From: Candidatus Bipolaricaulota bacterium | GTDB taxonomy: Bacteria > Bipolaricaulota > Bipolaricaulia > UBA7950 > UBA9294 | Assembly (NCBI GenBank): GCA_018817505.1 | Contig: JAHITR010000037.1 | Coordinates: 1 to 33,861 of the forward strand | DNA: 33,861 bases | Direction: 5' to 3' | In this document: one piece after another, positions 1 to 11,658 of the stretch | Position numbering within the stretch: position 1 is the stretch's first letter | Layout of the letters: every line of letters begins with the position of its first letter | The notes under the pieces: generated by a model | The model's input: only the letters and a program-made list of their open reading frames with translations | Database searches by the model: none | Told to the model about the DNA's origin: nothing | Program-made: the position numbers and the translations under genes

Positions 1-408
1 AACTCGATGGCATCGAGTTCTTTCGAGTTTGGCAAAGCCAAACTCTGGTTGGACAAACTGGGAACTCGATGGCATCGAGTTCTTTCGAGTTTGGCAAAGC
101 CAAACTCTGGTTGGACAAACTGGAAACTCGATGGCATCGAGTCCTTTCGGGTTTGGCAAAGCCAAACTCTGCTCGGATAGGCTGAGAACTCGATGGCATC
201 GAGTTCTTTCGAGTTTGGCAAGCCAGACTCTGGTTGGACAAACTGGGAACTCAATGGCATCGAGTCCTTTCAAGTTTGGCAAAGCCAAACTCTGCTCGGA
301 TCGGCTGAGAACTCAATGGCATCGAGTTCTTTCGAGTTTGGTAAAGCCAAACTCTGGTTGGACAAACTGGGAACTCGATGGCATCGAGTTCTTTCGGGTT
401 TGGCAACT
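1..408. repeat. Tandem array of ~62-bp units (6 full units plus a partial 7th), truncated at left window edge
   Basis: Units start at 1, 63, 125, 187, 248, 310 and 372. Consensus: AACTCGATGGCATCGAGTTCTTTCGAGTTTGGCAAAGCCAAACTCTGGTTGGACAAACTGGG. Each unit contains AACTCGATG-G-CATCGAGTT and GAGTTTGGC-AAA-GCCAAACTC inverted repeats. U3 and U5 share a variant tail (GCTCGGATxGGCTGAG). Confidence 0.95.
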
Positions 409-423
409 GGCCAAGGCCAAGGT

Positions 424-461
424 GCTTTGAGTTTCGCTTTGAGTTTCGCTTTGGGAAACTC
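424..461. repeat. Degenerate end of the array: 12-bp tandem repeat (GCTTTGAGTTTC x2) plus GAGTTTC/GAAACTC hairpin
   Basis: gctttgagtttcgctttgagtttcgctttgggaaactc; arms GAGTTTC 441-447 and GAAACTC 455-461. Confidence 0.75.
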
Positions 462-582
462 TGGCACGCTGACATAGCCGTCTGTTGACAGGGAAGGCTT
501 GACTGTGTCAGGCCCGTCCATTGTGAAGGCGTCCGGCAACACTCTACTTGCTCAGAGTTATCTGTCTTGACAAAATGAAGCC

Positions 583-1779
583 ATGAACGCGATGGATCAT
601 GTGCGGTATTTGGCGGAACACATCGGAGCGAGAGGGTCAACGACCCTCGAGGAGAAGGAAGCGGCCACTTATGTGGAGAAGCGCCTCACGAGCTTCGGAG
701 CGCCACCAACGACTGAGACGTTCCGCAGTGCACGCTCGGCCTGGCTTCCTGCTGCGCTATTCTGGAGCATCACTCTCGCTTCAGGTTTCGTGTTTCTCGC
801 AGGCGGACGTCTTCGCGCGATCATCGCACTCGCGCTGGCCGTTTTTGGACTCGTCTCCATCTTGTTGGAGTTGCTTTTTCGCCCCAACCCACTTCGGTGG
901 ATTCTGCCGAAAGGCGACAGCCAGAACGTTTGGGCTCGGATTGAGGCAGAAGAGGAAGCCCGGGAGCACGTCGCGCTGGTCGCTCACATGGACACCCATC
1001 GTACGCCTTTGGTGTTCTCATCAAGAACATGGGTACGTTTATTTGAGCGACTTGTCCCCATCGGGATGGGATTCGCTATCTTGCTGATCGTCATCTTTGC
1101 CGTGGGCATTGTACTGCCGATGCCCATACTCGGCGCTGTGGCCCTTGGCCCCATGTTCGTGGCAACAATCATGCTGATACTCATGCTCCAGGCCGATTTT
1201 ACATCCTACGCGGCTGGCGCCAACGACAACGCATCTGGAGTTGGTGTCGCTCTCAGTTTGGCGGAAAAACTGGCCAAGAGCCCGCTCAAGCATACGAAGG
1301 TGTGGATCGTGCTCACCGGATGTGAAGAAGTGGGCTGTTATGGTGCGGATGACTTCATCTGCAAACACAAGCGCGACCTAGGGAATGCCGCGTGGATCTC
1401 GCTGGACACCATCGGCAGCTTCCGCGGCTCGCCTGTCTTTCTTTCTCAGGAGACGTTCTTGGCCACTTCCAAGAGCGATGAGGGGCTTCTAGATGTCATG
1501 CGTTCTGTGGCCACCGCGCATCCTGAATTGGGAGCTCGTGAGATTCGCATGAAGGGTTCATACACAGACGGTGCCATGGGGTTCAAGCACGGGTTACGTG
1601 CGCTCACCCTCGAAAGCCATCAACAGGATGGGACACTCTCCAACTGGCATCAGCCCACAGATACGATCAATGCCGTGTTCCCTGAATGCATTCAGGCCAC
1701 GGAGTCTCTTGTCTTTGAGTTCCTACAGCAACTAGATCGCAACGTACGTCCCGATCCAACACAGTCATCAACGGGTTAA
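583..1779 (+). CDS. M28 family zinc metallopeptidase with integral membrane segments
   Basis: Motifs AHMDTH, GANDNASGVG, GCEEVG, SLDTIG and NWHQPTD match M28 metal ligands; four hydrophobic segments in the N-terminal half. Confidence 0.85.
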   Translation: MNAMDHVRYLAEHIGARGSTTLEEKEAATYVEKRLTSFGAPPTTETFRSARSAWLPAALFWSITLASGFVFLAGGRLRAIIALALAVFGLVSILLELLFRPNPLRWILPKGDSQNVWARIEAEEEAREHVALVAHMDTHRTPLVFSSRTWVRLFERLVPIGMGFAILLIVIFAVGIVLPMPILGAVALGPMFVATIMLILMLQADFTSYAAGANDNASGVGVALSLAEKLAKSPLKHTKVWIVLTGCEEVGCYGADDFICKHKRDLGNAAWISLDTIGSFRGSPVFLSQETFLATSKSDEGLLDVMRSVATAHPELGAREIRMKGSYTDGAMGFKHGLRALTLESHQQDGTLSNWHQPTDTINAVFPECIQATESLVFEFLQQLDRNVRPDPTQSSTG

Positions 1780-11626: not shown

Positions 11627-11658
11627 CACAGCACCAGGCATTCGTGCCTGGTGCTGTG
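11627..11658. terminator. Bidirectional terminator-like hairpin with TTCG loop between convergent genes
   Basis: CACAGCACCAGGCA-TTCG-TGCCTGGTGCTGTG, perfect 14-bp stem. Confidence 0.65.

Follow-up and report, generated by a model that had tools for sequence, protein, structure and literature searches.

The tandem array at the left end of the 33,861-bp window, the whole stretch of DNA analysed here and one entire contig (C74), is one expanded copy of a double-hairpin element that is dispersed through a single genus, and its 62-mer version is private to the intergenic region between a PKD-domain lipoprotein gene and an M28 peptidase gene. We consider the array to be probably, though by no means certainly, a tandem-amplified copy of a non-autonomous, structure-recognised, REP/BIME-like mobile double hairpin. 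A preliminary description of this DNA had offered three guesses about the array. Among these, the REP-like expanded element fits best, given the degenerate single copies dispersed in the genus, and the protein-binding array and the structured RNA fit less well.

Tandem Repeats Finder placed the array at window positions 1-406 with a period of 62 bp, 86% matches and 6.6 copies, a copy number that covers the window part alone, since the assembly breaks inside the array and the array continues on contig C99. The period agrees with the preliminary description; its extent of 1-465 does not, as the array degenerates over positions 407-465 into a tail that includes 2.5 copies of GCTTTGAGTTTC. On the plus strand, each unit reads hairpin B (AACTCGATGGCATCGAGTT), CTTTC, hairpin A (GAGTTTGGCAAAGCCAAACTC) and a spacer; the order is thus A then B on the minus strand. 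The arms of 9 bp with a 1-nt loop noted earlier are correct for the DNA palindrome, but the folded strand needs a larger loop and pairs over approximately 7 bp around TGGCA. Nine of the array hairpins pair without a mismatch over arms of 8 bp or more, and the remaining ones carry one or a few mismatches. Both hairpins are present in units 1-6 and only the first in unit 7; the total of ~13 serial stem-loops is in line with the more than 12 expected. The spacers between units belong to two recurring types, TGGTTGGACAAACTGGG or TGCTCGGATnGGCTGAG, none of them unique, and a Pfam scan of nine window proteins returned no Cas family. A CRISPR array, already disfavoured in the preliminary description, was rejected on these two grounds.

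Six array copies of the double hairpin (hereafter AB) match our covariance model R1 at E ≤ 0.001, all of them in minus-strand orientation. Unit 1 (1-45, 37.1 bits) is composed of hairpin B at 1-19, the linker at 20-24 and hairpin A at 25-45, and its left end is cut by the contig. The top-scoring array copy is unit 2 (60-107, 47.5 bits), with B at about 62-82 and A at 87-107. Units 3 (122-169) and 5 (245-292) are each followed by the second spacer type, GCTCGGATAGGCTGAG after unit 3. Unit 4 (184-230) measured 61 bp, as had been stated, and unit 6 (307-354) scores 39.1 bits. In unit 7 (369-465), hairpin B is intact (371-391) and the A part is degenerate and expanded, the 2.5 copies of the 12-mer lying at 424-453. 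Elsewhere in the window, positions 11627-11658 form a perfect hairpin of 14 bp around a 4-base loop (CACAGCACCAGGCA-ttcg-TGCCTGGTGCTGTG), which has no relation to the array.

A search of its own genome with the 62-mer returned this site and nothing convincing elsewhere, and a search of the relatives returned weak partial matches, which led to the dispersed family. The element is ~45 bp long and consists, on the minus strand, of hairpin A, a linker close to TC-CAA and hairpin B. Hairpin A has the foot GTT...AAC, mostly followed by TC, with CAA as the most frequent linker; hairpin B has the foot SSAAC...GTTSS, followed by C. Genomes of the same genus share this two-hairpin layout with different stems: what is fixed is the two-hairpin shape, the feet and the linker, while the stem sequence changes from copy to copy.

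R1 was built from 21 hand-picked seeds with masked loops and scored 69-150 candidates per genome, so that all copy counts are lower bounds. At E ≤ 0.01 the five genus genomes contain at least 28, 10, 26, 18 and 7 copies, the lowest number belonging to G004, and the genome of the array contains at least 38 at E ≤ 0.05. Among the other 55 relatives, the E ≤ 0.01 threshold yielded one copy in G028, one weak copy in G005 (sister genus) and none in the remaining 53; at E ≤ 0.001, 6 of 100 phylum genomes match, namely the five genus genomes and G028. In 40 random stretches of the genus genomes, picked regardless of hairpins, no AB copy was found at E ≤ 0.001 and the hairpins were ordinary, which indicates that the element is scattered rather than everywhere. 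Most copies (69 of 81) lie outside ORFs of 200 aa or more. Viral contigs searched with one exact AB pattern gave no match, and none of the papers searched joins Bipolaricaulota with hairpin repeats. Two further hairpin-rich regions were seen in G002: contig C17 (L025:1-600) is very dense in varied perfect hairpins, ten per 600 bases with several AB doubles, and contig C100 (L064:12981-13181) carries a 74-bp tandem array of 2.7 perfect copies whose hairpins are of unrelated sequence.

Pairing is kept while the stems change. Across 86 R1 matches, in an alignment fitted to the structure and grown from seeds picked for pairing, 98.7% of the modelled cells pair, and in 12 of 14 pairs both partners have changed; none of 500 shuffles paired as well, and the value is far above slid controls. 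For inner pairs that R1 does not include, the Watson-Crick share is 59-88% at 7 of 8 positions against ~25% by chance; at the fourth inner pair of hairpin A, likewise not part of R1, it is 3/8. We also compared orthologous sites (before tRNA-Arg(gcg), before Arg(ccg), after tRNA-Ser(tga) and in the linker of an Fe-S protein), where, with hairpin boundaries chosen by hand, 34 stem positions had changed on both sides and were still paired; a one-sided change was seen at 10 and another kind of change at 1. If copies had repeatedly replaced one another at these orthologous sites, the stems would differ in the same way.

Copies inside genes bear on mobility most directly. In G002 (contig C157) a Y1 transposase gene carries the element as an in-frame insert of 45 bp near its N-terminal end, and five homologues, from G000, G001, G002, G004 and G012, are without it; these empty homologues are other members of the gene family from the same and related species rather than the same gene in a sister strain, and this is the one insertion for which they are clear. 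Hairpins of this kind are present in G003 and G004 in the linker of an Fe-S/BFD protein, which in G005 is short and has none. The linker of a molybdopterin enzyme has hairpin A in G000, A and B in G002 and an unrelated hairpin in G005. Because of the one clean insertion and the genus-restricted copies in genes, we favour a reading in which the element moves, or has moved.

The B end of the element is biased toward gene ends. A crude ORF caller supplied the gene ends; by this measure 17 of 51 B ends and 1 of 47 A ends fall no more than 20 nt from such an end. Eleven B ends sit no more than 4 nt from a tRNA gene, next to its 5' end in the case of Arg and Asn and next to its 3' end in that of Ser and His. 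In G004 the spacer from tRNA-Ser to tRNA-Arg is bounded by two inverted copies with B outermost. No target duplication was resolved at the copies. Some tRNA-Gln and tRNA-Arg genes are followed by tandem units of ~130-150 bp, each of which repeats the 3' tail of the tRNA together with a terminator-like hairpin and AB, the stems differing between units (G000:C188, L124; G000:C89, L125; G002:C191, L148; G004:C21, L154; G004:C8, L161). Several contigs (C135, C19, C77, C235 and C48 of G002, and C39 of G004 at its end) stop at or a few bases from a tRNA 3' end, as expected if tRNA-tail repeats break the assembly.

The alternative that the hairpins act in transcripts as structured RNA (for example by shielding the 3' ends of mRNAs, by adjusting expression or by directing the processing of tRNA ends), with the array multiplying the effect, seems to us unlikely, although it has points in its favour. 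As RNA, the array region folds at -224.7 kcal/mol compared to -147 kcal/mol for dinucleotide shuffles (z -11.3; 0 of 100 shuffles as good), the stems covary, copies sit near gene 3' ends and tRNA ends, and transcription and action as RNA are assumed for many known REPs (PMC3733652). Against it, the orientation of the copies to the neighbouring gene is not constant, being sense ahead of tRNA-Arg and antisense behind tRNA-Ser, and copies also occur within coding linkers. A strand-specific RNA should moreover show a bias among its stem mismatches; with 17 G.T versus 11 A.C there is no strong one, and thus nothing that clearly points to selection acting on one RNA strand. A scan with Rfam 15 recovered tRNAs only, all other matches falling far below gathering scores, and a known structured RNA was rejected for that reason. 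The strand evidence does not support a purely RNA-level role, and individual copies may have roles at the RNA level.

Kept pairing might instead come from a mutational process, such as template switching between arms, that keeps palindromes perfect irrespective of mobility or function. The intergenic DNA of the genus is indeed rich in varied perfect hairpins, stems change yet remain paired, and 82 adjacent hairpin pairs were counted versus 15 in one shuffled control run, an excess due in part to the choice of loci for their hairpins. We regard this explanation as improbable, since it leaves unexplained the GTT/AAC feet and linker common to the copies, the occurrence of the two-hairpin layout in one genus alone and the 45-bp insertion.

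The two remaining alternatives turn on the PKD-M28 site itself. The terminal 86 bp of contig C99 are identical to window positions 1-86, and on C99 the array starts at the stop codon of the PKD-domain lipoprotein gene. The right flank is the M28-family peptidase gene (583-1779, plus strand; Pfam PF04389, E 1e-22), which has orthologues in G002, G003, G004 and G005. Since the PKD and M28 genes are contiguous neighbours in G002 and G004, two other genomes of the genus, the junction of C99 with the window is supported, and the array is the intergenic region between them. In G002 this region is short, with one clear hairpin and a second weak one, its best B-A-like unit reaching 12.5 bits (E 0.19); in G004 no double-hairpin unit is recognisable.

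If the array were a set of sites bound by a protein that regulates the M28 gene, repeated palindromes ~180 bp ahead of the start codon would be accounted for. Such a sequence-specific regulator would need conserved stems, but the same layout occurs with unrelated stems genome-wide, at tRNA ends and inside genes, and at the PKD-M28 site the relatives offer a single weak unit in G002 and none in G004, so we give this explanation very little credence. An assembly artefact or a low-complexity coding repeat is scarcely credible: the contig ends inside the array and a 142-aa frame is open across it, but the units are not identical and show a pattern of two types of spacer, relatives share the synteny of the site, the same element is found in independent assemblies, the array begins where the PKD gene stops and the unit length of 62 bp is not divisible by 3. 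A long coding frame is thus excluded; the open frame is a by-product of a stop-poor repeat, and the earlier judgement that coding is implausible holds.

Y1 transposase genes are present in the genus. As the source of the element, Y1/RAYT genes were rejected: none of ten examined Y1 loci contains an AB copy, and most of the genes carry other terminal inverted repeats. These repeats read GGGGTCAGGCCTT, GGGGTCAG-type and similar, and are unrelated to AB. Loci L178-L184, from the genus and the family, hold TIRYT-like Y1 genes of ~220-290 aa between inverted repeats such as GGGTCAGGCCTTTATTTTTGAAT or TTCGGGGGACACATACC.

Among known systems, AB behaves like REP/BIME sequences of the GTAG and CGTC superfamilies (PMC3733652). 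Both are short intergenic palindromes in tens of copies, often in close heterodimers or clusters, often adjoining gene 3' ends and sometimes inside genes; the copy numbers of AB are at the low end, with only 7 in G004. In 80 left flanks, GTAG occurs 4 times and GTGG 2 times, below the 11.6 expected for each. REP copies of one family share their stem sequence and flank a RAYT (Y1) gene, whereas in AB the stems vary with the foot triplets and linker fixed, and the examined Y1 loci are free of copies. Having tested for the GTAG foot, the Y1 association and shared stems and found none of them, we do not class AB as REP. CGTC was found 27 times in the same flanks versus 11.6 expected, with 13 of 80 at -14 to -12 and not at the stem foot. 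In CGTC-type REPs the motif is a terminal tag next to an 8-9 bp stem, whereas the enrichment in AB lies 12-14 nt beyond hairpin A and concerns a minority of copies. This enrichment leaves the link to CGTC REPs open; these are likewise described in the literature without association to a Y1 gene.

Double-hairpin and repetitive hairpin elements of mitochondria (PMC2800124), likened to AB by layout, also join adjacent hairpins into one dispersed, potentially mobile spacer unit. They are recognised by insertion differences between close relatives, for which AB offers one insertion with empty homologues; AB differs in residing on a bacterial chromosome and in keeping its pairing while orthologous stems change. 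Rickettsia palindromic elements, grouped with CGTC REPs (PMC3733652), resemble AB by description as palindromic insertions inside genes, and AB is distinguished by its two-hairpin layout, AAC/GTT feet and lineage. Some TIR repeats of TIRYTs are double palindromes occurring as repeats (PMC3733652), and TIRYT-type Y1 genes are present in the genus. The TIRs seen in these genomes are unrelated to AB in sequence, no inverted AB copies flank the Y1 genes examined, the TIRs there being GGGGTCAG-type and similar, and an AB copy interrupts one of the Y1 genes. Integron attC sites have RYYYAAC/GTTRRRY cores, one nested hairpin and an integrase gene; the AAC/GTT feet of AB are reminiscent of them, the two successive hairpins are not.

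We hypothesize that AB would be recognised in trans by a putative endonuclease or transposase through its two-hairpin shape, foot triplets and linker. Recognition by shape would leave the stems free to drift provided that pairing stays. Copies are seen flush with gene ends, those of tRNA genes above all, as well as between genes and, in frame, within protein linkers. At the PKD-M28 site, one copy may then have been multiplied head to tail through slippage or unequal recombination. More tentatively, and with somewhat more doubt than confidence, we propose that AB might represent a new class of bacterial mobile palindromes recognised by shape, with two successive hairpins, fixed foot triplets and linker, freely evolving stems, insertion that abuts the ends of tRNA and other genes or falls in frame within protein linkers, and a putative enzyme acting on it.

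If the favoured reading is right, AB would be a REP-like element identified by its fold and a few foot letters, not by its stem sequence. Ordinary repeat finders would miss such elements, much as the 62-mer search of its own genome did, and the element would help to explain assembly breaks at tRNA genes. The copying and upkeep of hairpins would become testable, as the same orthologous sites hold different, still paired stems, and palindromic mobile repeats would extend to a lineage known from metagenomes alone.
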